Assembly: GCF_001292705.1 (NCBI RefSeq)
Contig: NZ_LGAK01000005.1
Coordinates: 1-64,000, forward strand
Reading direction: 5' to 3'
DNA length: 64,000 bases
Origin: Marinagarivorans algicola
GTDB lineage: Bacteria; Pseudomonadota; Gammaproteobacteria; Pseudomonadales; Cellvibrionaceae
Part shown: positions 5,222-20,927 of the stretch, piece after piece
Position numbering within the stretch: the first letter of the stretch is position 1
How the letters are laid out: each line of letters begins with the position of its first letter
Program-made: the position numbers and the translations under genes
Notes under the pieces: model-generated
Told to the model about the DNA's origin: nothing
The model's input: the letters and a program-made list of their open reading frames with translations, nothing else
The model's database searches: none

Positions 5222-6154
5222 CTAATTCATATTCACAACCCTAAACACGGTTTGCTGCACGGGCACAAAACTGGTTGCGCCTTTTTCAGGTTCAATAAAT
5301 TCAAAGCTAATCCCCAACGCCGGCACAATCGTGGTGCATTCACTGTCATTTTTGGCCGAATAGCAACCTAGCTCAGCGTCTTTATTTTTAGACACGTCCA
5401 CGCCTGCCAACAAAGATTTCACATCAAACGCAATCGCCTGCTCTTGAGTGTCTATATCCACACATACCTGCGCAATATTGGGCGAGCCACAAGCCACCGA
5501 AGGGCGACGGTTTTTATCTTCCGAAAGGCAGCCGGTACTTTTCAGCTGGACATTAAATGTTTGTGGTTTGTCTTCAGGGTTAGCCGTACCATCTAAACGT
5601 AAAAACGTACGCCCATTTTGAACACTGTTAAACAGCGCTGTTGTATCCAGTGGCGGCAATGCGCCCTCAGCGCGCTGATGATTGCGGTCAAAAGGAATAC
5701 CCACATCAAAACACACCCCCGTCACTCTACGTGTACTATACAGACGCACATTGGCATCTACCGCCATATTCAACTCGCGCTCTTCACCGCGACTACAATC
5801 AGCACCAAAATTCAGCAATGCCACATTATCATGCTGCCACATGCCGTCTTCTGTAAGTGAAGCTGTAACAGCCGTACCATCATCGAGTAAAGCTTGAAGG
5901 CGACTGATATACATGCGCAGGCCCTCGACACGATAATCGTGCTTGCCTACGCCGACATCCTCGTACGTTTTACCGCACAAAAACTTTTCATTACCAATCA
6001 GTCCTTTAAAATTCAGGACAAGCGGCTGATCTACTTGTGTTTCTGGCGATGCATCATCTTCAACACAACCGCCTAGCAAGCCCACGCAACCTAGCAGCGC
6101 AAGTCTTTTTGCTAGGTGCCCAATTCCTTTCTTTTTTTGTTGATTACATAACAT
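5222..6154 (-). CDS. MbnP-like four-Cys lipoprotein, orphan
   Basis: It resembles the MbnP family (metallo-mystery pair system four-Cys motif protein), periplasmic copper-linked proteins normally encoded beside the di-haem enzyme MbnH. Visible family features are the N-terminal LNFKGLIGNEKFLCG segment, the GLRMYISRLQ strand, GVCFDVGIPFDRNH, the FLRLDG strand and paired Cys residues through the C-terminal half. With the start at 6154 the protein has a lipoprotein signal with Cys30 after LLGG. A longer form starting at 6214 (Met-Ala-Ser) has a better ribosome site (GAGGTG) but would bury the signal peptide. No MbnH-like gene is in the window. The region where family members usually carry aromatic Trp residues before the FLRLD strand reads ALFNSVQNG here, so the partner-dependent chemistry may be lost. 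Confidence 0.7.
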   Translation of the reverse strand: MLCNQQKKKGIGHLAKRLALLGCVGLLGGCVEDDASPETQVDQPLVLNFKGLIGNEKFLCGKTYEDVGVGKHDYRVEGLRMYISRLQALLDDGTAVTASLTEDGMWQHDNVALLNFGADCSRGEERELNMAVDANVRLYSTRRVTGVCFDVGIPFDRNHQRAEGALPPLDTTALFNSVQNGRTFLRLDGTANPEDKPQTFNVQLKSTGCLSEDKNRRPSVACGSPNIAQVCVDIDTQEQAIAFDVKSLLAGVDVSKNKDAELGCYSAKNDSECTTIVPALGISFEFIEPEKGATSFVPVQQTVFRVVNMN

Positions 6155-6969
6155 ATTTTCATATCCAAAAACAGTTGCCCTTATGTGGTTAACACCCCCA
6201 CCTCCTGAAGCCATAATCACCTCAAATAGCATGTACATTGGTACAGCCATCTGCACCAAGGATTCAGAGCATTCCCCACTGCAACCTTTAATATTAATTA
6301 AGATTTACGTGCCATTCTATATGGCTTCTTGCGCAGACAGCAAAGCTTAATCCTTCTTTAGGGCAGTAGGTCTAAAAGTGTGTGATCAAAACAATGTATT
6401 ATTTAGTGAACATGGCATTTAAAAGATGCGAAGCTTTTATATAGGGTACCTAGGGCGACGACAGTCAAATCATAATAATGCCATAAAAGGTATTTTTATC
6501 ACTTGGCTATTTCCTAGCACAAAGATCAACGCTACGCTCACGCATCAATACTAATGAATGCATTAATATAGGCCCTACCTCTCTTTTTGTCATGTAAAAG
6601 AACATCCCAGTTTCTAAGACATCCACTATTTTAGGCTTTTGCGCGTAAGCTTAAATAAATGCGTGTCTTATTTTAACTGATACATCGCTATTCAGCCGCA
6701 CTGACAAACTTCACCTAATAGGTGCTGATGAATTATCTTCTGAGCATAGAAAGGCCAGTCAATCATTCATGAAACCCACGTTAGGTATGCCTGGGTAATG
6801 ACGTTGAGACAACCACTGAGCGGTATACAGCCTAAACACCTTGTCACCGCTGCTTTGTCACCTTAAGTCAAGTACCTCAAAGGCAAGCGGTTGATTACCA
6901 CAATAAGCGCACATTCAACTTGCAGCACTCGCAAGGCTTACCTTGCTGATATTTATGAAAGGACTAATC
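6155..6969. other. Long intergenic region, divergent promoters
   Basis: About 815 bases between the MbnP-like gene (minus) and the giant oxidase gene (plus). It is AT-rich with no convincing gene. It must hold promoters for both genes, but none could be placed confidently. It carries one copy of a dispersed intergenic element at 6688-6747, described separately. Confidence 0.6.
6688..6747. repeat. Dispersed intergenic element, copy A
   Basis: This 60-base stretch aligns without gaps to 27967-28026 at 41 of 60 positions. The ends are best conserved: CTATTCAGCCG at one end, and TGCTGATG followed by a TTAT.TTCTG.GCAT pattern at the other. The 10-base core CTATTCAGCC occurs a third time at 14357-14366. 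All three are intergenic, which suggests remnants of a small mobile or regulatory element. Confidence 0.5.
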
Positions 6970-9900
6970 ATGAGAAAATGCATCAAGCAACAATTCATCA
7001 AGCAACTGCGCTTGGCGATTTTGGCACTGGCTGTTAATGCCGTTAACTTACCATTGACGAGCACACCAACCCAAGCCGGCCCACTGGACCCGCCTCATAT
7101 CGCAGGTCAATGGAGCCCTGTTTATGATGGCGACATTGTCGCTGTTCACATGATAGTCATGCCCGATGGCAAAGTTTTAAATTATGCCGAGGGCGGTCAA
7201 GGACGACCCATGATAGAAGAAATACGCATTTGGGACCCTGTAGAAGAAACGCTCACCACGCCGACACTACCACCTTATGACTTATTTTGTTCGGGGCACT
7301 CTGTACTGCCTGATGGCCGTGTATTTATTCAAGGTGGTCACGATGAAGCCGATGCCCACGGGCAATCACGCGCAACCATTTATGACCCCTTTAGCGATAC
7401 TTGGGATACCTCAGTACCCAATATGAATGCTGGGCGCTGGTATGCCACCAATACTATTTTGCCCAATGGTGATGTGTTGGTACTTAACGGAGCTATCGAC
7501 GGTTACAACAATAAAAACGACTTGCCTCAAGTGTGGCAACTTCAAACCAACACATGGCGCAATCTGATTACCGCTGAAGATTCCGAGCCGACTGGCCGCG
7601 ATTTTTACCCACGCATGTTTGTCGCCCCTGATGGCCGAGTATTTAAAGCCGGCCCCGATCGCGATACGTGGTTTTTAGATACCTCAGGCACCGGTCAATG
7701 GACGCGTGGACCTGACATGAAATTTGAAGGTTTTAGAGGCTACGGCAGTGCCGTTATGTTTGAAGAGGGTAAAATTTTGGTTATGGGCGGAGCCGATAAC
7801 CCACCCACGAATACCGCTGAAATTATCGATCTTAACGACGAAAACCCTCAATGGAAATTCGTGGCTCCGATGCATCACGCCCGCCGACACTTAAATGCAA
7901 CACTCATGGCCGACGGCAAAGTACTCGTCACCAGTGGCACCAGCGCCCAAGGCTTTAATAATGGCGATGGCCTTGTCACGATTGCCGAAATATACGACCC
8001 CGCCACCGACACATGGGAGGAAGTTGCCGCCCAAACTCACGGTCGCGCCTATCACTCCAATGCTGTCTTACTACCCGATGGTCGCGTTCAAATAGGCGGG
8101 GGAGGGCGCCCAGCCGCCGATGGTGGCATCGAAAACCCTAATCTCGAAATTTACTCACCGCCCTATTTATTTCAAGGTACCCGCCCTGTGATTGCACAGG
8201 CGCCGAGCGTCTTATCGTTTGGAGATCGCTTTGATGTCGCGCTCGATACCTCAGCGGTTAACCCAGAGGCTATTACTGCCGTACACTTTATACGCCTTGG
8301 CGCCACGACCCATGCGTTTAACCAAACCCAAAGTATTAATCGCTTAAGCTTTACGCCCAATACCACAGGTTTGACGATTAATGCGCCGAGTGACCCCAAT
8401 CGTGCTCAGCCCGGCCATTACATGCTATTTGTGCTAGCCGATGGCGTGCCTTCTGTGGCCACCATGGTGAAATTTGGCGATGCTGAGCCCCCGAGTCCGC
8501 CGACCGATATTGACGTAACCCCTATTAACCCCACAACACTCGCCTTAAGCTGGCCGGCGTCAACCGATAATATTCAAGTGGTTTCTTATAGCGTGTATCT
8601 CAACGGTGAATTTATAGAAACCGTCAATGCGCCGGCGAGCACACTGTACAACCTCGACTCATCGACCGATTACACTATTACCATCGTAGCGCGCGATTTA
8701 TATGGCAACGAAAGCACCAGTGACACGCTCCGCGTAACGACTGATGAGCCGGGCCTAAACCCACCGCAAGCCAACCCCGGCATCGACTTTTTCGCCGCGA
8801 TTAATCAATCATTTTTACTCGATGGCTCGGCCTCTAAAGATGTTGATGGACAGGAACTAACCTATACATGGTCACTCGATGGCAACATTATCGCGACCGT
8901 ACCCATCCTACACGTAAGCCAGCCAGTTGAAGGCGATTATCTCTACACCCTCACTGTTAGTGATGGCGAATTTACCGACAGCGCTAGTATCACAGTCACC
9001 GTGGTTACCGCCCTTAATGTGCTCGAGAACGGTACCTTTGAAGATGGCATTGGTGAAGCCGGCATATTGCATTGGGAGGGCGAGGCGCAGACAGGCACTG
9101 CCGCTTTTAGCAATACCGATGGACGTGCTCACATTCATGTAACACGAGACAGTCCAGCGCGTTGGATGGTGCAAGTTATGCAACGTATCAACCTCGTTGC
9201 TGGCACTACCTATACACTCGATTTTGATATGCAAAGTGATGCACCTAGTCGTGATTTTAGCGTTGTTGTGGAAGAAATAGGCACTTGGATACCTTACATG
9301 TCACGTGATTTACAACTCAATGCGCAAATCACGCCAGGGAAAATCAGCGGAGAAACTCAGCACTTCACCCTACAATGGACGCAACCTGTCACCACTAATA
9401 ACGCTAAAGTCGGCTTTCATGTTGGCGCAAGCGGCCTCGGCGATATTTGGTTAGATAACGTGTTTTTAAGCGGTGGTAATACCGGTAACCTTCCTCCTAT
9501 CGCCATTGCTGGGCCGGATAGTCAAGGTTATATGAACTTCCCCGCCAGCCTTGATGGCAGCCTAAGCTACGACCCTAACTATGCCTACCCCACCAACAGT
9601 GGGCTTCCCTTAGGCAACGGTACTGTCCCCACACTCACCTACTCCTGGGTGCAAGTCGCAGGCTTACCCGTTATTTTAAGTGATACCGACCAAGCCAAAG
9701 CCTCTTTTATTGCCAGTGAACCAGGTTTATACACCTTCGCACTCACCGTCAGCGATGGCGAGTTTAGTCATACCAATACCGTCAGCGTTACCATGAGCGA
9801 ACTATTTAACATACCGCCGCAAGCCGACGCAGGCGCCAGCTTTACCCAAGCCTTAGGGCGTAACGTCAAGCTCAATGGCTCCGCCTCCACAGACCCCGAT

Positions 9901-12900
9901 GCCGCACCCTTTGCGCTATCCTACCAATGGGTGCAACTGACGGGCCCCAGTGTTAGCCTTAACGACGTGACACTGGCCGAACCTTACTTTACACCGACGC
10001 AAGCGGGCAGCTATACCTTCGGCTTGGTAGTCAACGACGGTGATCTGAGCTCACCTCTTGCCGAAGTCACAGTAACCGTTGCCGACATCAAAACGCAAAA
10101 TTTACTCGCCAATGGGAGCTTTGCCAAAGGGCTAGAAAATTGGCAAAGTTTAGTGATCGATGATGCCGACGCGCTCTTTACCCCCACAGAGGGCAAAATC
10201 AACGTCAATGTGATTGATAGCGGCACCAATAATTGGTCACTACAACTGTACCAAACGTTAGCACTCGAGGCAGGTAAAAAATACACCCTCAAAATTGACG
10301 CCTCTGCCAAAGAGCTACCGCGCAGTATACGCTTTGTGGTTGAGCACTTTGGTCCACCTTGGAACGCCTACTTTAATGAAGTTTTTGAGTTAGATACAGA
10401 CAATACCGAGCAAACCATTTTTATTCAGTGGCCGCAAACCACAGATGATAGTAACGTTAAAATTGGCTTTTATTTTGGTAACAGCAGCAATACCGATATT
10501 TGGCTCGATAACGCTGTACTGATTGACAGTGCTAGCACTGAAAACTCAGCACCCGTCGCCAATGCTGGACTCGATAAAACGCGAATGGCCTTTGAGCCCA
10601 TTACTTTAAATGGTACTCGCTCACAAGATCCCGATACGCTGATTACCGGTAATGTTGCACTGAATTATGTATGGGAGCAAACCGCAGGGCCCGCTATCAC
10701 CTTGCAAAATGCCCATACAGCAACCCCTACATTCACCCCCACAAAAGCAGGTGTCTACACTTTTGCGCTCACAGTTGATGATGGCGAATTAAGCTCCAGT
10801 GTTGACACGGTAACGCTACTGATTACAACGCCAGACAATCAGGCACCCATCGCTAATGCCGGCCCTGACCAGCAATTTATTTTAGGCGGTAGCGTGACGC
10901 TTGATGGCAGTAAAGCTTTTGACCCTGACAACTTACCCACTCGTTTAAGTTATCAATGGCAACAAACCGGTGGCCTCAGTGTTAATTTGCTGGGCAGCCA
11001 AACCGCCACACCATCGTTTGCCCCCGTTATTGCTGGCAGTTATGTTTTTAGCTTGGTTGTAAACGATGGCGATAAAAGCTCACTCCCCAGCACAGTAGTA
11101 GTGACCGTCAAAGAGCCCAATATTGCCCCAGCCGCCGATGCCGGTCAAAACAGGCGCGTATACCTCGGCGATACTGTCACACTTGATGGTAGCAACTCTA
11201 TCGATCCAGACGGCGGCCCCAACACCATCACCTATCAATGGCAACAAATTAGCGGTAACCCTGTCACATTGAGTGATACCACGACTGCCACACCTCACTT
11301 TACAGCCGATACACTGGGTAAGGTGCGCTTTACGCTGCTTGTCTTTGATGGTGAGCTGACCTCGCTCGCCAGCACTGTCACACTCAAAGTTGTACCTGTA
11401 CCGAATACTGCACCCAAGGTAACAGCCCGTGCTGCCTCACGTGCACCAGCGAGCTTTAGCACGGCGTTGTACGGTAAAGGCTTTGATGCAGAAGGCGATG
11501 TACTGAGCTTTAGCTGGCAACAACTCAGTGGCCCAACCGCCACCATCGATAACGCTACACAAGCAAATACACACTTCACACCCGCATTACCGGGCACTTA
11601 TGTCTTTAAACTGACTGCCAGCGACGGTCAACTCAGCTCCAACAAGCGCAGTATTAACCCTGCACAATCGCTCATGATTACCGACAAGAGCATTTTGCAG
11701 CACTTTGACCTCAAGTCAGTACTCGAGCAAATGCTAAAGACCAGCGCCGACCACCAGCAATCACCCGCCGATATTATGCTAGCACTCGCCGACTTACGCC
11801 AAGATTGCGGCACTTTCAATGGCTTTCCAGAAGCCGACAACTCGGCAAGACCACGCTTTTGTAGCTCACCAGGGGCTAGTATGGATAGCTTTCTCGCCAG
11901 CCTCGATACCGAGCTCACCTACTACCGGCCTATTGCTTTGGTCAATCGCTACGATCTCGCCAATAATGACGGTAGCGATTGCGGCGAGTACCGTATTGCC
12001 TACGCGGGTAACGATTTAAGCCCACGTATTAACTTCTTTATTTTTGAAGCGCGCCTCCCCAACCCCAAGCCACAACTCGGCTTAGCCGGTTGTCGCCCCA
12101 TCGTCGAGTACTGGGCCAATCTTAGCCAAGAACGCGACCCGCAAACACGCGCCAACTTGCTACATACCTTCTTTTTTAAAGGCATCAAGCACTTTGCACC
12201 CGCTATTAGCGCTCATCACTTTGCCGGCGAAAACCGTGGCAGCGGTGCTATCCGCTTAAATGCACGCGTCGATCAACGCAATAACTGGGTCTTTATGCAG
12301 TTTCGCACGCAAATCGCTGACAATTGCGCTCCGAGTTGCACCTTGGGCGTGGCGCAAGAGGGCCTCAAAGATACGCCCTTCCCTGCCTTAGCTGGTATTG
12401 TCGAACCGGCATTACAAGCTAAGGCCGACGCCTTTCAACAAGCCGTATTAAAAGCCATTCATACCCCAGGGCAAGGACTACTCGCTAATACGGTCAGCAG
12501 GTTGGATACCACACTACCTTTTAGCAGTTACCTAGGTCGTCAGCATTCCGGCCTAGCGCAAACACCCGGTGTTATCGAGGCAATGTCACCCGCCTTTGAA
12601 GCGGCGATTGCCGCCAAACTAGCCCAGGCAGGCTCTACACTCACGCCCACCAATATTATCACGCGTGTTCATTCAATGACCTGCGCCGGCTGCCATAACC
12701 AGCACAGCGATCAGCTTGGCGCGCCACTAATATTAAAAACAGATAACCAAACCGTCGAGTTTTTAAGTACTCAACTAGAAGCGGGGCCTGACGGCCAGCG
12801 CTACACGGTCAAACCCGCCATGAAAAACCTCTTTTTACCCGAGCGTATTCACCTAATGCAGCAAGCGCTCGATCAAAGTATGGTCAGCATTCAAGTATTC

Positions 12901-13512
12901 GACGGCGACGAAGATAACGACGGTGTCATCGATAGACTCGATAGCTGCCTAGGCTCACCGAGCAACGCGCTGGTCAATGCACAAGGCTGCGCCTTGGTGG
13001 CCTACGCCAAAATTGAAGCCGAGCACTTTCAAAATTTCAAAGATAAAGACAAGCAAAGCGTCAAAAATAAAGACACGCAACAAGGTGCCAACTGTGGCCC
13101 TGGCGTTGACTTAATCCCTAGCAGTGACGCACAAGACATCATCGCGGGCCAAAGTCTAACCTGCATACAAGATGGTGAGTGGCTTGAATACACTGTTGCG
13201 CTATCGGAGGGGGTTTATGAGCTCAGCGCTCGTCTCAATACCATCAATGGCGGCGGTCGCTTCCAAATTAAGCTCGCCAGACAAGCCGTTACCGCTTATG
13301 TGAGTGGCTCAGGTGTTCCACCCGAGTGGCAAACCTATACACTCAACAAGCCCATAAATGTGAAAAAAGGCGTATACACGGTCAAAGTAAAAATGCTGCA
13401 AGGCGGCTTTGACTTAAACTGGATTGCCTTTGAGGCGTTGTGGCTAAAGGAGTATGGCAAGATCAAAGAACCTCATTACTCGATCAAAAAAGACACCACA
13501 CAAACTCCCTAA
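6970..13512 (+). CDS. Giant secreted copper-radical-oxidase-like protein with CBMs and a CxxCH haem motif
   Basis: A 2180-residue exported protein. Domains in order: signal peptide; kelch-propeller oxidase of the galactose/glyoxal oxidase type (AA5, ~42-500); FN3 (~506-593); PKD-like (~594-681); CBM4/9-like (~683-836); two PKD-like (~842-1038); second CBM4/9-like (~1043-1186); four PKD-like (~1194-1566); a Cys-rich unnamed region (~1568-1965) with CAGCH at 1905-1909; a thrombospondin-type-3-like Asp-rich stretch; and a C-terminal CBM6-like domain (~2012-2165). The oxidase keeps all copper-site residues: Cys107 (FCSGHS) and Tyr158 (GRWYAT) for the thioether pair, Tyr361-His362 (RAYHS) and His483 (PGHYM). 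The substrate is probably a sugar or aldehyde; this is inference. The ATG at 6970 was chosen because AAAGGA precedes it by 6 bases and a normal signal peptide follows. A TTG at 6943 is also in frame. Confidence 0.85.
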   Translation: MRKCIKQQFIKQLRLAILALAVNAVNLPLTSTPTQAGPLDPPHIAGQWSPVYDGDIVAVHMIVMPDGKVLNYAEGGQGRPMIEEIRIWDPVEETLTTPTLPPYDLFCSGHSVLPDGRVFIQGGHDEADAHGQSRATIYDPFSDTWDTSVPNMNAGRWYATNTILPNGDVLVLNGAIDGYNNKNDLPQVWQLQTNTWRNLITAEDSEPTGRDFYPRMFVAPDGRVFKAGPDRDTWFLDTSGTGQWTRGPDMKFEGFRGYGSAVMFEEGKILVMGGADNPPTNTAEIIDLNDENPQWKFVAPMHHARRHLNATLMADGKVLVTSGTSAQGFNNGDGLVTIAEIYDPATDTWEEVAAQTHGRAYHSNAVLLPDGRVQIGGGGRPAADGGIENPNLEIYSPPYLFQGTRPVIAQAPSVLSFGDRFDVALDTSAVNPEAITAVHFIRLGATTHAFNQTQSINRLSFTPNTTGLTINAPSDPNRAQPGHYMLFVLADGVPSVATMVKFGDAEPPSPPTDIDVTPINPTTLALSWPASTDNIQVVSYSVYLNGEFIETVNAPASTLYNLDSSTDYTITIVARDLYGNESTSDTLRVTTDEPGLNPPQANPGIDFFAAINQSFLLDGSASKDVDGQELTYTWSLDGNIIATVPILHVSQPVEGDYLYTLTVSDGEFTDSASITVTVVTALNVLENGTFEDGIGEAGILHWEGEAQTGTAAFSNTDGRAHIHVTRDSPARWMVQVMQRINLVAGTTYTLDFDMQSDAPSRDFSVVVEEIGTWIPYMSRDLQLNAQITPGKISGETQHFTLQWTQPVTTNNAKVGFHVGASGLGDIWLDNVFLSGGNTGNLPPIAIAGPDSQGYMNFPASLDGSLSYDPNYAYPTNSGLPLGNGTVPTLTYSWVQVAGLPVILSDTDQAKASFIASEPGLYTFALTVSDGEFSHTNTVSVTMSELFNIPPQADAGASFTQALGRNVKLNGSASTDPDAAPFALSYQWVQLTGPSVSLNDVTLAEPYFTPTQAGSYTFGLVVNDGDLSSPLAEVTVTVADIKTQNLLANGSFAKGLENWQSLVIDDADALFTPTEGKINVNVIDSGTNNWSLQLYQTLALEAGKKYTLKIDASAKELPRSIRFVVEHFGPPWNAYFNEVFELDTDNTEQTIFIQWPQTTDDSNVKIGFYFGNSSNTDIWLDNAVLIDSASTENSAPVANAGLDKTRMAFEPITLNGTRSQDPDTLITGNVALNYVWEQTAGPAITLQNAHTATPTFTPTKAGVYTFALTVDDGELSSSVDTVTLLITTPDNQAPIANAGPDQQFILGGSVTLDGSKAFDPDNLPTRLSYQWQQTGGLSVNLLGSQTATPSFAPVIAGSYVFSLVVNDGDKSSLPSTVVVTVKEPNIAPAADAGQNRRVYLGDTVTLDGSNSIDPDGGPNTITYQWQQISGNPVTLSDTTTATPHFTADTLGKVRFTLLVFDGELTSLASTVTLKVVPVPNTAPKVTARAASRAPASFSTALYGKGFDAEGDVLSFSWQQLSGPTATIDNATQANTHFTPALPGTYVFKLTASDGQLSSNKRSINPAQSLMITDKSILQHFDLKSVLEQMLKTSADHQQSPADIMLALADLRQDCGTFNGFPEADNSARPRFCSSPGASMDSFLASLDTELTYYRPIALVNRYDLANNDGSDCGEYRIAYAGNDLSPRINFFIFEARLPNPKPQLGLAGCRPIVEYWANLSQERDPQTRANLLHTFFFKGIKHFAPAISAHHFAGENRGSGAIRLNARVDQRNNWVFMQFRTQIADNCAPSCTLGVAQEGLKDTPFPALAGIVEPALQAKADAFQQAVLKAIHTPGQGLLANTVSRLDTTLPFSSYLGRQHSGLAQTPGVIEAMSPAFEAAIAAKLAQAGSTLTPTNIITRVHSMTCAGCHNQHSDQLGAPLILKTDNQTVEFLSTQLEAGPDGQRYTVKPAMKNLFLPERIHLMQQALDQSMVSIQVFDGDEDNDGVIDRLDSCLGSPSNALVNAQGCALVAYAKIEAEHFQNFKDKDKQSVKNKDTQQGANCGPGVDLIPSSDAQDIIAGQSLTCIQDGEWLEYTVALSEGVYELSARLNTINGGGRFQIKLARQAVTAYVSGSGVPPEWQTYTLNKPINVKKGVYTVKVKMLQGGFDLNWIAFEALWLKEYGKIKEPHYSIKKDTTQTP

Positions 13513-14990: not shown

Positions 14991-17900
14991 ATGAAAAAAG
15001 CCATATACATTTCCTGCATTATTATATTTGTTTTGGGGTTGTCCGCTTGTAGCAATAACACCAACAACACACATAATAACAACAGTACAACATCACAGTC
15101 TTCCAGTAGCGCACCGCCTGCCAACGAGCATAAAGCGTCTCTTATTTATCATTTAATGCCCGATCGCTTTGCCAATGGCAATACCGATAACGACGGCACC
15201 CCAACAACGGGGTTTAACCCAAAATCAAGCCGTCATTTTCATGGGGGTGATATTGCCGGTATCACACAAAAATTAGATTATTTATCGGGCCTTGGTATTA
15301 GCGATATATGGCTAACGCCTATTTTTAAAAATGAAATGATCAATGATCGAGCAGGCTATCATGGGTATTGGATTACCGATTTCACAGCACTAGACCCGAA
15401 CTTTGGTACCGAAGAAGAACTTCGCACACTCATTGAAAAAGCCAAAGAACATAATATTGGCATTATTTTAGATATTGTCACTAACCATACCGCCGATGTT
15501 ATTCAATACAGTGAGTGCACAAATTGTGATTTTTCAGCCATGCCCTATACGCCCGTTATTGCCGATACGTACAAAACCATTAAAAATCCTGCATGGCTAA
15601 ATGATAGCGCGCTCTACCACTTACAAGGTAATATTACCAATGATAGCCAAGCAATAACTGGGGATTTATCGGGACTTGATGATTTAAAAACCAGTGACCC
15701 CGCAGTACTCAAGGGATTTGTTGATATTTATAGCCAATGGGCTACGCAATTTGATATTGCAGGCTATCGAATAGATACCGCCAAACATGTAGAACCCGAA
15801 TTTTGGCAACAATGGCAAGCTGATATTTTAATGGCAAATCCTAATTTAGATATTTTTGCTGAAGTCTTTGATGGCAACCCTAAAAATATCGCCAATTATT
15901 TGCATGACTCACACTTAAAAAGTGGTTTAGATTTTGGTCTTTATTACGCAATTAATGATGTATTTGCCAAAGGCGAAAGCCCACAAAGAATTGCTAATAC
16001 ATTAAAAGCTGATTATAACTACAATACACAAAGCGAACCTAAAACCTTAAAAACTTTTATCAGTAACCATGATGTCGGCCGCTTAAGCTATTTTATTGAT
16101 AAGCACCAAACACAAGCAACCCCGCAAGAAAAACTCGATCGACTTATTCAGGCTTATGGCTTTTTATTTACCGTAAGAGGTACACCCATTATTTATTATG
16201 GTGATGAGCAAGGCTTTATCGGTACCGGTGAGTACGAAGGTGCGCGCGATGATATGTTTGCCAGCCAAGTAGAGTCACTTAATACAATAACTAATCTAGG
16301 CAGTAGCGCCACCACCGCCGATGATAACTTCGACAGCCAACATCCGGTCTACTCAGCTCTCAAAGAATTACAAACACTGCGCCAAGGGCATAGCGCCTTA
16401 GCACAAGGTCAAACATTAGTTAACGTTGCAAGCAGCGACACGGGCCTGCTCATTTACAGTCATTTTGGCCAAGATAATAATACATATAGCGAATATGTTG
16501 TGGCGTTTAACACCGGTTATAATACGCAAACTCACACATTAAGCGGCGCCGATTTTTATAACCGTACACCCGAAAACACACCAACTTACACCACACTCTA
16601 TTCATACAATGATGCTACTCATAGCGAAGGTATACTCACGCTCCCAGCTTATAGCTTTACCATTTTAAAAAGCCAAGCCACCGATACACAAACTTTTGAT
16701 AGCATTACTTTGACCGCCGAGCCTGCAGGCAACCAATTACTATTAACAGCAACAGCACAATACGCATCCGGCTTACCGATACTCGGGCAAGTCACCTTGC
16801 AACAAAGTACTAAAGAACAAAGCACCAAAGAAGGCTTTAAAACCTTACTACAAGATCAAACACTCCCCTATACTTTTACTATTGATGCTAACGCACTCGA
16901 TGAAACAACAGCCTTCAAAGCGATCATTAGCTATAGCACAGCAACAGGCCAAAGCGCGATCGAGCAAAGCGTTACGCTAAACCATACAACAACCCAAGTT
17001 GAGCCTATGCGTGTGCAATTTAAAAAACCAGACGACTGGAGCGATGCTGTTAATATTTATTTTTGGGACACACAGCTCAGTTCATTTGAGCCTGCTTGGC
17101 CCGGCATACTTATGACACCCACAGGCGATAACTGGTATAGCTTTGAATTCCCAGCCAGTATCAGCTCTGCCAATATTATTTTTAATGATGGTAATCAACA
17201 AACCGAAAATTTAGCGCAAAACCAAAGCGCCTGCTATATCGACGGTCAATGGCAAACTCAAGACTGTAATGCACCACCACCAGGCCAAACTATTTTTGTT
17301 AAAAAGCCTGCCAATTGGCAAGGGCCCTTGTATGTTCATTATTGGGATGCAGGTGATGCAACCAATACCGAATGGCCTGGCGTGAGCATGCTTGATTTAG
17401 GCGGCAACTGGTATCGCTTTACCTTACCGCTAGGCGCGACTCAAGCTAATATCGTGGTACATGATAACAACGGCTCGCAAACCGATAATTTAAATACCGC
17501 CTCAGGCCAATGCTTTGATATCGCCGACAACACTTGGAGCCCAGCGTGTGATCTCACCAACCTTGTCGGCATTGAAGGCGCGAGTGCCCACTGGATTGAT
17601 GAGACAACCCTTATTTTAATGCAGCCCAATGCCAAAGCCACACAATGGCAATTGCAAGCAAGTATGGCAGCCGGCATTACTATTAATGACAGCCAACTTG
17701 AGGGTGCGCAATCAATCGCTACGCTAACGCCCACCGAGCTCACCGAAGCACAGCGCGAGCGCCTAAAAGACACTCACAAAGCGCTAGCCACAGGTACAGC
17801 CTTTACTGTCAGTAATAGTACCAACAACAATACCAACAACAGTACAGCGCCATCACTTCGCTCACTCATTCAGTCACAATTAGTTGTTGCACAATTCAAT

Positions 17901-20900
17901 GATGACAATAAATTGCTAGCGGCAACGCATGTACAAACTGCCCTAGTGCTCGATGATCAGTTTAGCTATACCGGTCCACTCGGTGTACACAATGAAAGCA
18001 ATGCACCGACCATCTCTGTTTGGGCACCTAATGTACAAAGTTTAGAACTACAACGATTTGATAGCGACTTTACATTACTGCAAAGCCACACCGCTACACC
18101 CGATAACCAAGGTGTTTACCATTTTGTTGGCGATAGCACATGGTATGGGCAATACTATCAATTTGCGATCAAAGCTTATCACCCTGCCAGCGATCAGGTA
18201 GAGCAATACAGTGCCACCGATCCATACAGTATTAGCCTGTCTAGTAATAGCCAATACAGCCAAATCATTGATTTAAATGATGCCAGCTTGCAACCTGCCA
18301 ATTGGTCAGCGCTTAAAAAAGCATTACCGCCGTGGCAAAATATTAGTATCTATGAAGGCCATGTTCGCGATTTTAGCGCCCAAGAAGCGAATATTAAAAA
18401 ATCCGATCAAGGCCGCTATAACGCTCTAACCTATGACGGTATTACCGCGCCTTTATCCAACGGTATGCAGCATCTTAAAAATCTCGCCGATGCAGGCCTA
18501 ACTCATTTTCATTTGTTGCCGGTGAATGACATTGCCACCATCAATGAAGAAACATTAACCACAGCGCCGTTAACACTTGAGCATACCGTCAAAGAAGTCT
18601 GTGATCGCAATATTGTTGAGAAATTAACACCCTATTGCGACGATTACAGTGAGATGACGTTGCAGCAGTTAATGACAACACTCACCGAGCAAGACCCTAG
18701 CAATACCCACGTACAAGATATTATTAGTTTTGCACGCACCGAGCAATTCCCAAGTATCGACGCTTTTAACTGGGGCTATGACCCCTATCACTTTTTAGTC
18801 CCCGAAGGTAGCTATGCCACAAATAGCCAAGGCCCTCAACGTATTTTAGAGCTCAGAAATGCCGTCAGTAGTTTGCACACTATTGGTTTAAAAACCGTTG
18901 TCGATGTTGTTTTTAATCATACTTACGCGTCGGGTTTAAATACCCAATCTGTACTCGATAAAGTAGTGCCTGGCTACTACCATCGTCGCCATCCCATAAC
19001 CGGTGTCATTGCCAACTCCACATGCTGCGACAATACCGCCGCCGAGCACACCATGATGGAAAAACTCATGCGCGATGCGGTGGTGTTGTGGGCAAAACAA
19101 TACAAAATTGATGGCTTTCGCTTTGACCTGATGGGCCACCACCCCAAGCGCGTTATGTTATCGATTCGCGAAGCGCTTAACGCATTAACACTCGAGCGTG
19201 ATGGTGTTGATGGCGCCAACATTTATCTCTATGGCGAAGGTTGGGACTTTGGCGAAGTATCTGCCAATCAACGATTTGCACAAGCCAGTCAAACAGGCTT
19301 AACTGGCACCTTAATAGGTACCTTTAATGACCGCCTACGCGATGGCGTACGCGGTGGTAATTTTACCGATACCGGTTTGGCCGCCGGTTTTGCCAGCGGC
19401 AATGCGGTATATAGTGAGCCGCAAAGCACCACAACAACCGCTCAAGCACAAGCCGATGCGATTCGTATTGGACTTGCTGGTAATTTGGTTAATTACACCT
19501 TTATAGACCATACCGGTCAACAAAACACGGGCAAAGGGTTAAACAATATTGCTTACAACACCTCTCCGCTCGAAAACGTGTTATATGTTGATAAGCACGA
19601 TAACGAAACACTTTGGGACAATACCCAGCCTAAATTGCCCGCCAATTTTAGCGCACAAGAACGTGTTGCCGTTCATTTATTAAGCCAAGCGTTTGTTAAC
19701 TATGGACAAGGTATTCCCTTTCACCAGATGGGTACCGACCTACTCCGCTCAAAGTCTATGGATCGCAATAGTTTTGATTCTGGCGACTGGTTTAACCGCA
19801 TTGACTTTAGTGAAAATAACGACTCAGGTATCACTAATAACTGGGCGCAAGGTTTACCGCCAGCCGAAAGTAATAGCAGTCGCTGGGAGATTATAAAAAC
19901 ACTTTTTGACAACAATAATATCCAAGTCGATGCAGCTTTAATGCGCCAAGCCCATCAAGGTTTTACAGAGCAGCTAAAAATACGCTATAGCACTGAACTG
20001 CTACGCCTAAATAATGCAGACGACGTTAACAAGCGTCTTAAATTTTGGAATACTGGCGCCGATCAAAAAAGTGGGTTAATTGTGATGTCCATTAGCGGTA
20101 GCGATTGCAATACCAGCCAAGACCGCACATTTGAATATGACGGCATTTTAATTGCTTTTAATGCCGATGCAACAGCCATTGAATGGCAAGATGATACGCT
20201 CAGTACACTTCCCTTTGAAGTCCACCCATTACAAAATATCAATCCCGGCAGCTTTGATATACAAACAGGCATTTTTACACTGCCTGCCATTAGCCCCAGT
20301 GTTTTTGTCTTGCCTAAAGGTAGCGCCGCTGCATTGCCATGCAACACACTGCAAACTCCTATCCAAACGCCAGGCATCACTATTTATGCCAAAGCACCAA
20401 CCGAATGGAGCCTACCGCTTAATATTCATTTTTGGGACACCTTACCAAAACAAACCGAAACACAATGGCCGGGTAATACAATGCAAAGCATTGGTGAGAA
20501 TTGGTTTTCTTACACCTTGCCCGCTGACGTTAATGAGGCAAACCTCATATTAAATGATGGCAATGGAAATCAAACAGCAGATCTTTATCGCCAAGGCGAT
20601 GGCTGCTTTGATATTTCAGATGATGCTTGGCAAGCTAACTGTGACTTACCCGGTATCACCCTATCATTTAAAAAGCCCGAGCACTGGTCTAATAATATTA
20701 GAGCTTACAGCTGGGAAAATGGCAGCGATCAAAACCTTGAGTGGCCCGGTCAATTAATGACTGAAGCTGATGGTGTTTTTCGTGTAACCATGCCACGAGG
20801 TGTGCGATCCACTAAAATTATTTTTAACGATTTAGGCACACCCGAAGCCAGCGGCGAGCAAACACCTGACTTATTTATCGATCAAGATAGTTGTTACAGT

Positions 20901-20927
20901 ATTGAAGACAACTGGCATTCTTGTTAA
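14991..20927 (+). CDS. Bifunctional alpha-amylase/pullulanase lipoprotein with four starch-binding modules
   Basis: 1978 residues with a lipoprotein signal (Cys20 in LSAC) and an Asn/Ser-rich linker, so probably cell-surface or periplasmic and membrane-anchored. The first GH13 domain (~40-560) has nucleophile Asp262 (YRIDTAKH), acid/base Glu291 (FAEVFD) and Asp361 (SNHD), and is alpha-amylase-like. Two CBM26-like starch modules follow (~673-760, ~766-855), then a pullulanase-type part with a beta-sandwich N-domain (~980-1080) and a second GH13 domain carrying WGYDPYHF, VVDVVFNHT, Asp1379 (FRFDLMGH), Glu1416 (YGEGWD) and Asp1537 (DKHDNE). Two more CBM26-like modules close the protein (~1794-1885, ~1887-1978). 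It should cut both alpha-1,4 and alpha-1,6 bonds in starch, glycogen or pullulan. The secreted alpha-amylase gene follows in the same direction. Confidence 0.9.
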   Translation: MKKAIYISCIIIFVLGLSACSNNTNNTHNNNSTTSQSSSSAPPANEHKASLIYHLMPDRFANGNTDNDGTPTTGFNPKSSRHFHGGDIAGITQKLDYLSGLGISDIWLTPIFKNEMINDRAGYHGYWITDFTALDPNFGTEEELRTLIEKAKEHNIGIILDIVTNHTADVIQYSECTNCDFSAMPYTPVIADTYKTIKNPAWLNDSALYHLQGNITNDSQAITGDLSGLDDLKTSDPAVLKGFVDIYSQWATQFDIAGYRIDTAKHVEPEFWQQWQADILMANPNLDIFAEVFDGNPKNIANYLHDSHLKSGLDFGLYYAINDVFAKGESPQRIANTLKADYNYNTQSEPKTLKTFISNHDVGRLSYFIDKHQTQATPQEKLDRLIQAYGFLFTVRGTPIIYYGDEQGFIGTGEYEGARDDMFASQVESLNTITNLGSSATTADDNFDSQHPVYSALKELQTLRQGHSALAQGQTLVNVASSDTGLLIYSHFGQDNNTYSEYVVAFNTGYNTQTHTLSGADFYNRTPENTPTYTTLYSYNDATHSEGILTLPAYSFTILKSQATDTQTFDSITLTAEPAGNQLLLTATAQYASGLPILGQVTLQQSTKEQSTKEGFKTLLQDQTLPYTFTIDANALDETTAFKAIISYSTATGQSAIEQSVTLNHTTTQVEPMRVQFKKPDDWSDAVNIYFWDTQLSSFEPAWPGILMTPTGDNWYSFEFPASISSANIIFNDGNQQTENLAQNQSACYIDGQWQTQDCNAPPPGQTIFVKKPANWQGPLYVHYWDAGDATNTEWPGVSMLDLGGNWYRFTLPLGATQANIVVHDNNGSQTDNLNTASGQCFDIADNTWSPACDLTNLVGIEGASAHWIDETTLILMQPNAKATQWQLQASMAAGITINDSQLEGAQSIATLTPTELTEAQRERLKDTHKALATGTAFTVSNSTNNNTNNSTAPSLRSLIQSQLVVAQFNDDNKLLAATHVQTALVLDDQFSYTGPLGVHNESNAPTISVWAPNVQSLELQRFDSDFTLLQSHTATPDNQGVYHFVGDSTWYGQYYQFAIKAYHPASDQVEQYSATDPYSISLSSNSQYSQIIDLNDASLQPANWSALKKALPPWQNISIYEGHVRDFSAQEANIKKSDQGRYNALTYDGITAPLSNGMQHLKNLADAGLTHFHLLPVNDIATINEETLTTAPLTLEHTVKEVCDRNIVEKLTPYCDDYSEMTLQQLMTTLTEQDPSNTHVQDIISFARTEQFPSIDAFNWGYDPYHFLVPEGSYATNSQGPQRILELRNAVSSLHTIGLKTVVDVVFNHTYASGLNTQSVLDKVVPGYYHRRHPITGVIANSTCCDNTAAEHTMMEKLMRDAVVLWAKQYKIDGFRFDLMGHHPKRVMLSIREALNALTLERDGVDGANIYLYGEGWDFGEVSANQRFAQASQTGLTGTLIGTFNDRLRDGVRGGNFTDTGLAAGFASGNAVYSEPQSTTTTAQAQADAIRIGLAGNLVNYTFIDHTGQQNTGKGLNNIAYNTSPLENVLYVDKHDNETLWDNTQPKLPANFSAQERVAVHLLSQAFVNYGQGIPFHQMGTDLLRSKSMDRNSFDSGDWFNRIDFSENNDSGITNNWAQGLPPAESNSSRWEIIKTLFDNNNIQVDAALMRQAHQGFTEQLKIRYSTELLRLNNADDVNKRLKFWNTGADQKSGLIVMSISGSDCNTSQDRTFEYDGILIAFNADATAIEWQDDTLSTLPFEVHPLQNINPGSFDIQTGIFTLPAISPSVFVLPKGSAAALPCNTLQTPIQTPGITIYAKAPTEWSLPLNIHFWDTLPKQTETQWPGNTMQSIGENWFSYTLPADVNEANLILNDGNGNQTADLYRQGDGCFDISDDAWQANCDLPGITLSFKKPEHWSNNIRAYSWENGSDQNLEWPGQLMTEADGVFRVTMPRGVRSTKIIFNDLGTPEASGEQTPDLFIDQDSCYSIEDNWHSC

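Follow-up and report, generated by a model that had tools for sequence, protein, structure and literature searches.

In Marinagarivorans algicola, a copper-radical oxidase of family AA5 and a module bearing the motif CAGCH, a candidate covalent haem c site, are encoded as one polypeptide. The gene lies at 6970-13512 on the forward strand of the window, which is the whole stretch of DNA analysed (contig NZ_LGAK01000005.1, positions 1 to 64,000, 64,000 nucleotides). Copper site and haem motif are both intact, the gene shows the substitution pattern of purifying selection, the fusion is spread through the genus, and AA5 domains recur elsewhere in the same chain as a second kind of haem domain. 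We tentatively favour the view, held with short of even confidence, that the protein is a secreted GlxA-type oxidase in which a tethered haem would activate the Cu-tyrosyl radical and use peroxide.

To our knowledge, it is an open question how bacteria activate copper-radical oxidases, to which a peroxidase is added in the laboratory. A chain that brings its own candidate haem, together with a second case in which another haem domain is used, lets this question be tested directly within a single protein. A further gain is a CxxCH protein family unmatched by any Pfam or NCBIfam model in our scans; all other parts of the protein are of known kinds. No AA5-haem c fusion is reported in the titles and abstract openings listed by our searches of open-licence PMC papers, which is not proof of absence in print.

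Domain layout and copper site of the oxidase

The single open reading frame (ORF) starts with ATG at 6970, an in-frame TTG also being present at 6943. It is unbroken in the sister species, and homologues of about 2,200 amino acids are found in sister genomes. The 2,180-residue product is predicted to be secreted; among the stretches compared between sister species its signal-like residues 1-36 have the lowest protein identity. They are followed by AA5, fn3, PKD, a carbohydrate-binding module (CBM) of type CBM4/9, PKD-type repeats, a second CBM4/9, further PKD-type repeats, the module of about 410 residues, a TSP3-like linker and CBM6/35, several of the domain limits being set by eye:

6970..13512 (+): whole gene for a multidomain protein of 2,180 amino acids, predicted to be secreted (ORF call and sister-genome homologues)
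6970..7077 (+): signal-peptide-like N terminus, residues 1-36 (by eye from the sequence)
7078..8481 (+): AA5 copper-radical oxidase (kelch propeller plus E-set), residues 37-504, with copper site C107, Y158, Y361, H362 and H448 and second-shell W157 (domain, NCBIfam, PDB and family alignments)
8311..8313 (+): codon of His448, the third copper ligand (PDB alignments; 32/32 AA5 proteins)
8494..9003 (+): fn3 (residues 509-587) and PKD (598-678) (domain scan)
9016..9426 (+): CBM4/9 copy 1, residues 683-819 (domain scan)
10093..10527 (+): CBM4/9 copy 2, residues ~1042-1186 (two CBM4/9 stretches in the scan; limits by eye from likeness to copy 1)
10540..11650 (+): PKD-type repeats ahead of the putative haem module, limits approximate (the protein has seven K319L-like_PKD stretches)
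11662..12894 (+): undescribed module, residues 1565-1975, bearing CAGCH (without Pfam, NCBIfam or PDB family; family alignments)
12682..12696 (+): CAGCH, residues 1905-1909, candidate site of covalent haem c attachment (a CxxCH in each of the 25 module copies whose C terminus is intact)
12895..13014 (+): TSP3-like acidic linker, residues 1976-2015 (limits by eye; hit by NCBIfam NF053612 over 1976-2019)
13102..13434 (+): CBM6/35, residues 2045-2155 (domain scan)

A preliminary description of this DNA, made from the letters alone, had spoken of several CBMs and of a CAGCH at residues 1905-1909 that precedes a CBM6-like domain. The domain scan bears this out with two CBM4/9 stretches and one CBM6/35, and CAGCH is the sole CxxCH of the protein. 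The fusion of oxidase and haem motif in one polypeptide is likewise confirmed, with the amendment that the motif belongs to a large module that also exists without AA5.

The kelch propeller and the C-terminal early-set (E-set) domain typical of AA5 are both present and match solved galactose and glyoxal oxidases with a best E-value of 2.8e-50 in the PDB search; GO-like_E_set is matched at 1.1e-20. The NCBIfam GlxA model NF052501 is hit at 1.2e-58, yet with 198.8 bits versus a curated cut-off of 800, so that the protein does not count as a GlxA equivalog. In an alignment of 32 AA5 proteins, from which profile matches scoring below 40 bits over the full sequence were excluded, C107, Y158, Y361, H362 and H448 are invariant (32/32), providing the Cys-Tyr pair, the axial Tyr and the two His of a complete copper site. 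The preliminary description had listed the first four of these correctly but had named His483 as the remaining ligand. The shared His of five PDB alignments is His448, within TH..N/D..Q, whereas His483 faces A, W or Y there and is ruled out. Across the 32 proteins, position 483 is H, Y, F, M, N, A, K, E, W or Q, and position 448 is His throughout. The H362-H448 spacing of 86 fits that of Fusarium AldOx, whose histidines H739 and H826 are 87 apart, and the 362-483 spacing of 121 does not (PMC13094651; for this and the other papers cited, statements refer to the consulted portion of the source).

W157, located directly ahead of the cross-link Tyr, is Trp in 30 of the 32 AA5 proteins and aligns with the GlxA Trp. 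The position of galactose-oxidase Trp290 is occupied by Ile176, which aligns with a Trp of 9g8h/9g43 that we take, by its motif, to be the W290 equivalent; the aromatic second-shell residue of AA5_2 is thus not found here. Because of Trp at 157 and Ile at the Trp290 position, the enzyme appears more likely to act as an aldehyde/glyoxal-type or glycan oxidase than as a galactose 6-oxidase. For the role of W290 in the second shell of galactose oxidase we follow PMC13094651, where the second-shell Trp is W288 in GlxA and W509 in the Fusarium AldOx, FgrAldOx. GlxA from Streptomyces lividans and the fungal AA5_1 glyoxal/aldehyde oxidases share with our protein the copper site and the Trp preceding the cross-link Tyr. 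They differ in that haem and a CBM/PKD array go unmentioned for them in the consulted portion of that source, while a candidate haem and such an array are present here in a protein of roughly three times the length of the GlxA model (645 positions).

The CAGCH-bearing module and its family

The module as such found no match in Pfam at an E-value limit of 10. Aside from one inserted CBM6, eleven aligned members gave weak matches only when compared with Pfam and NCBIfam (best 0.1 and 0.011), and a profile search of the PDB returned nothing significant, with a copper ATPase at 0.1 and a cytochrome c551 peroxidase at 0.62. CCP_MauG appeared at an E-value of 0.13 in only one of the 11 copies, and a single CxxCH does not agree with the di-haem pattern of CCP/MauG. 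Despite the lack of a Pfam or NCBIfam match, the module is a real family of CxxCH proteins. It occurs in 22 of 144 genomes of the family (16 strong matches; the other six are weak, partial and to a distant group only) and in eight of 390 genomes of the order, source genome included, seven of these matches being strong. In a thinner sample of the phylum (398 genomes) it was seen in the source genome only. Two of 72,556 plasmid records carry it, both rhizobial, and two scans of viral contigs found no relatives.

Twenty-five module copies have an intact C terminus; this number leaves aside L022 with an in-frame TAG, G003/L021, in which the contig ends ahead of the motif, fragments that are short or weak, and the distant group. 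Every one of the 25 contains exactly one CxxCH, with AG, GG or QG as middle residues. Twenty lack AA5 and span 476-900 residues, two larger ones lack it as well, and three are AA5 fusions; partners other than AA5 are TSP3 repeats, laminin-G, Ig-like domains and CBM6. The CxxCH is followed by a W-P pair in 21/25 and by F-x-H in 19/25 copies, and CxxCH and F-x-H are found in 9/9 of the separately counted distant relatives. The AA5-fused clade has lost both the W-P pair and F-x-H, a candidate distal His. All three AA5 fusions that reach the motif show CHNQH instead, and L025 has a similar nearby His. As a speculation, this change may shift the distal ligand or open the haem to peroxide. A Met at 'KPAM' was considered as axial ligand of the family and rejected, as it is Met in four of the nine alignment rows that reach the site and Leu in the other five.

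A few peculiarities of single family members may be added. Ten of the 25 module proteins (L006, L026, L076, L079, L080 and L104-L108) end in RSG or RAG, seven of them in KRSG; this unexplained C-terminal tag is absent from the three AA5 fusions. The module proteins L031, L032, L033, L038 and L039 end in RVH or RTH. In L025 (2158-4245, minus strand, genome G023) a CBM6 is inserted within the module, between CxxCH and a terminal LP-x-R-like stretch. The interrupted L022 is a fourth module copy in G002.

Exported CxxCH proteins in cells with CcmF normally receive haem. CcmF is found over its cut-off in the source genome, and the CxxCH resides in a protein that is probably exported, its signal peptide being judged by eye, as expected for a c-type cytochrome. 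The number of cysteines ahead of CxxCH is 2, 4 or 6 in 22/25 copies and 5 in three close relatives; an even number means that these cysteines would mostly be able to pair with each other, leaving the CxxC free. Between sister species, with dS near saturation, the ratio of nonsynonymous to synonymous substitution rates (dN/dS) is 0.030 for the CxxCH stretch, 0.024 for AA5, 0.049 for the CBM4/9s, 0.055 for the whole module and 0.09-0.12 for the PKD linkers, values that show purifying selection on the gene; the motif region is held about as tightly as AA5 and more tightly than the linkers, and the module as a whole resembles the CBM4/9s. We consider it probable that the module binds haem. The haem c site proposed in the preliminary description is supported by the conservation of the motif (25/25), the signal-like N terminus, CcmF and the fusion of AA5 to other haem domains; kinship to haem domains beyond the motif was not detected in a comparison of low power.

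Fusions of AA5 to haem-motif domains and the possible role of a haem

AA5 and the module share one frame in 4/4 genomes of the genus searched, that of G003 being cut by a contig end ahead of the motif. Outside the genus, no AA5 site coincided with a module site in the searches of family and order genomes, and G871 contains both in separate genes. The search for the architecture in other genomes, which the preliminary description had suggested, further revealed two CxxCH on the C-terminal side of AA5 in nine of the 28 other AA5 proteins of family and order (L101, L102, L137, L143, L144, L146, L147, L148 and L153). The five of the nine that were scanned (L101, L102, L137, L144, L147) all contain CCP_MauG, four over the cut-off, and four contain a RoxA-like cytochrome c, one over the cut-off. 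As a haem partner of AA5 in this order, these di-haem domains are comparable to the module; they differ by their two CxxCH, and likeness to it was detected at the motif only. The same five proteins carry malectin, lectin, PA14, PKD, laminin-G or F5/8 domains, L137 having a length of 1,269 amino acids. In nine of 16 genomes with an AA5 match, the matches were confined to short parts of other or broken kelch proteins.

In the AA5 tree, the module-fused genus forms one clade (support 100/100) and the di-haem proteins reside on other branches. The di-haem state needs three changes, possibly one gain and two losses, and the branch joining the di-haem proteins with six AA5 proteins lacking CxxCH has a support of 87/84. 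Judged by the motifs, AA5 has thus been combined with no fewer than two distinct haem-motif partners. One partner may have replaced the other, and the recurrence with a second haem domain suggests that the pairing is useful.

Copper-radical oxidases rest as an inactive Cu(II)-tyrosine form, and class II haem peroxidases, which come into play below, hold their haem non-covalently. For full activity in vitro the oxidases need a peroxidase; plant-pathogenic fungi secrete a haem peroxidase together with the oxidase, which it activates by one-electron oxidation (PMC9770985). In the reading that we favour, our protein would be a polysaccharide-directed oxidase of the GlxA/aldehyde-oxidase type, whose AA5 domain would oxidise an alcohol or aldehyde group and yield H2O2 and whose CBMs would keep it on a glycan. 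The C-terminal module would receive one covalent haem in the periplasm, ahead of export. This haem, in its ferric or peroxide-oxidised state, may then accept a single electron from the resting Cu(II)-tyrosine state, which would activate the oxidase and keep it active; the haem would also consume part of the peroxide. The protein would be a one-chain counterpart of the fungal oxidase-peroxidase pair, with the bacterium's own H2O2 serving activation. The tandem peroxidase and alcohol oxidase from Colletotrichum likewise combine a copper-radical oxidase with an activating haem partner but are two separate proteins, a class II haem peroxidase and an AA5_2-type oxidase (PMC9770985). Cbp2D and Cbp2E from Cellvibrio japonicus, a bacterium we infer to be of the same family, provide another CBM-bearing protein with a c-type haem, the X183 cytochrome, that may serve a copper enzyme; there, the enzyme is a lytic polysaccharide monooxygenase (LPMO) on a separate chain and the reaction is reduction, not oxidation (PMC12542752). 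X183 was not matched in the PDB profile search with the module, the presence of X183 in the searched PDB copy being unconfirmed and X183 and the module not having been compared directly.

Several observations weigh against activation by a tethered haem. The PKD linkers are long, and a meeting of the two centres is not guaranteed. Nineteen of the 28 other AA5 proteins lack a CxxCH in the same chain (one of them, L142, is cut by a contig end), and none of four further AA5 loci found outside the order in the phylum search has a CxxCH in the examined parts of its frame, three of the frames being cut by the flank. Through the loss of F-x-H and the W-P pair, the haem of the AA5 clade may differ from that of its relatives. 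The Pfam, NCBIfam and PDB searches of the module recognised neither a cytochrome fold nor a cytochrome family. Comparison with the di-haem domains by hhalign, in which L025 was excluded on account of its inserted CBM6, gave probabilities of 65.9% and 26.6% but, once the motif was masked, only 0.3% and 0.2%; as the control, two haem domains of other AA5 proteins compared with each other, fell from 85.0% to 4.3%, the test is low-powered and neither shows nor excludes kinship. Structure prediction, which the preliminary description had proposed for the CAGCH region, reached a mean predicted local distance difference test score (pLDDT) of 40 for the whole module and 53 for its last 109 residues, too poor to show a cytochrome fold or to allow any structural claim. 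The 109-residue model places CxxCH at a helix end, cytochrome-like, with a pLDDT below 50 there that is too weak to count.

The unrecognised fold leaves some room for CAGCH not being a haem site at all but a zinc site completed by a downstream His, or a CxxC disulphide, and the CxxCH plus F-x-H seen in 19/25 copies and in all nine distant relatives could indeed be a metal site. Still, the AA5 clade has dropped F-x-H and kept CxxCH, although a new His is available in CHNQH, and an exported CxxCH protein in a CcmF-bearing cell would be expected to get haem; we regard a zinc or disulphide site as quite improbable. It is also conceivable that the haem module acts on its own, as a peroxidase, in gas or redox sensing or in glycan-side chemistry, its fusion to the oxidase serving just to place both on the same surface. 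This would agree with the 22 of 25 module proteins that lack AA5, some of them joined to TSP3 repeats, laminin-G, Ig-like domains or CBM6, and with the separate genes in G871. It would leave unexplained why AA5 is fused to another, two-CxxCH domain in nine other proteins, and we consider such independence unlikely.

The preliminary description had named three roles for the haem, accepting electrons, removing peroxide or linking the enzyme to an outer-membrane electron path. Of these, the use of peroxide, together with activation of the radical, has a fungal biochemical precedent (PMC9770985); nothing examined points specifically to an outer-membrane path, at which no search was aimed. The haem might instead take electrons from reduced Cu(I) in place of O2, making the protein a dehydrogenase that feeds an outside acceptor or the cell. 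A partial precedent is the X183 cytochrome of Cellvibrio Cbp2D, which in isolated form could start copper reduction in an LPMO (PMC12542752). However, none of the neighbouring genes fits as an electron path throughout the genus, MbnP adjoining the gene in G000 and G001 only and other genes being present in G002, and one haem on long linkers would make a poor wire, so that electron export of this kind, too, seems rather unlikely. With activation by the tethered haem retained as our tentative reading, a bolder extension can be formulated, which we think doubtful: Pseudomonadales may have built single-chain copper-radical/haem c oxidases at least twice, once with the mono-haem module and, on other branches, with a di-haem domain of MauG/RoxA-like type; the bacterial activator of the Cu-tyrosyl radical that has so far been missing would then be the tethered haem, and the module would be a new c-type haem fold.

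Gene neighbourhood

Upstream of the AA5 gene, on the opposite strand, lies a gene for a protein of the copper-binding MbnP family (5222-6259, minus strand). It adjoins the AA5 gene in G000 and G001, while an MbnP match is absent in G002 and G003, the latter genome being 72% complete; in G002, a MauG-like gene is situated downstream of the AA5 gene instead. MbnP was therefore set aside as a part of the system, since this neighbour is not common to all genomes of the genus. No match to MbnH over the family cut-off was found in the source genome, so that the MbnP there looks like an orphan; the sister genome G001 contains this MbnP gene plus a separate MbnP-MbnH pair. Further downstream, an amylopullulanase-like protein of 1,978 amino acids with four CBM26 stretches is encoded at 14991-20927 (plus strand), followed by another alpha-amylase gene.

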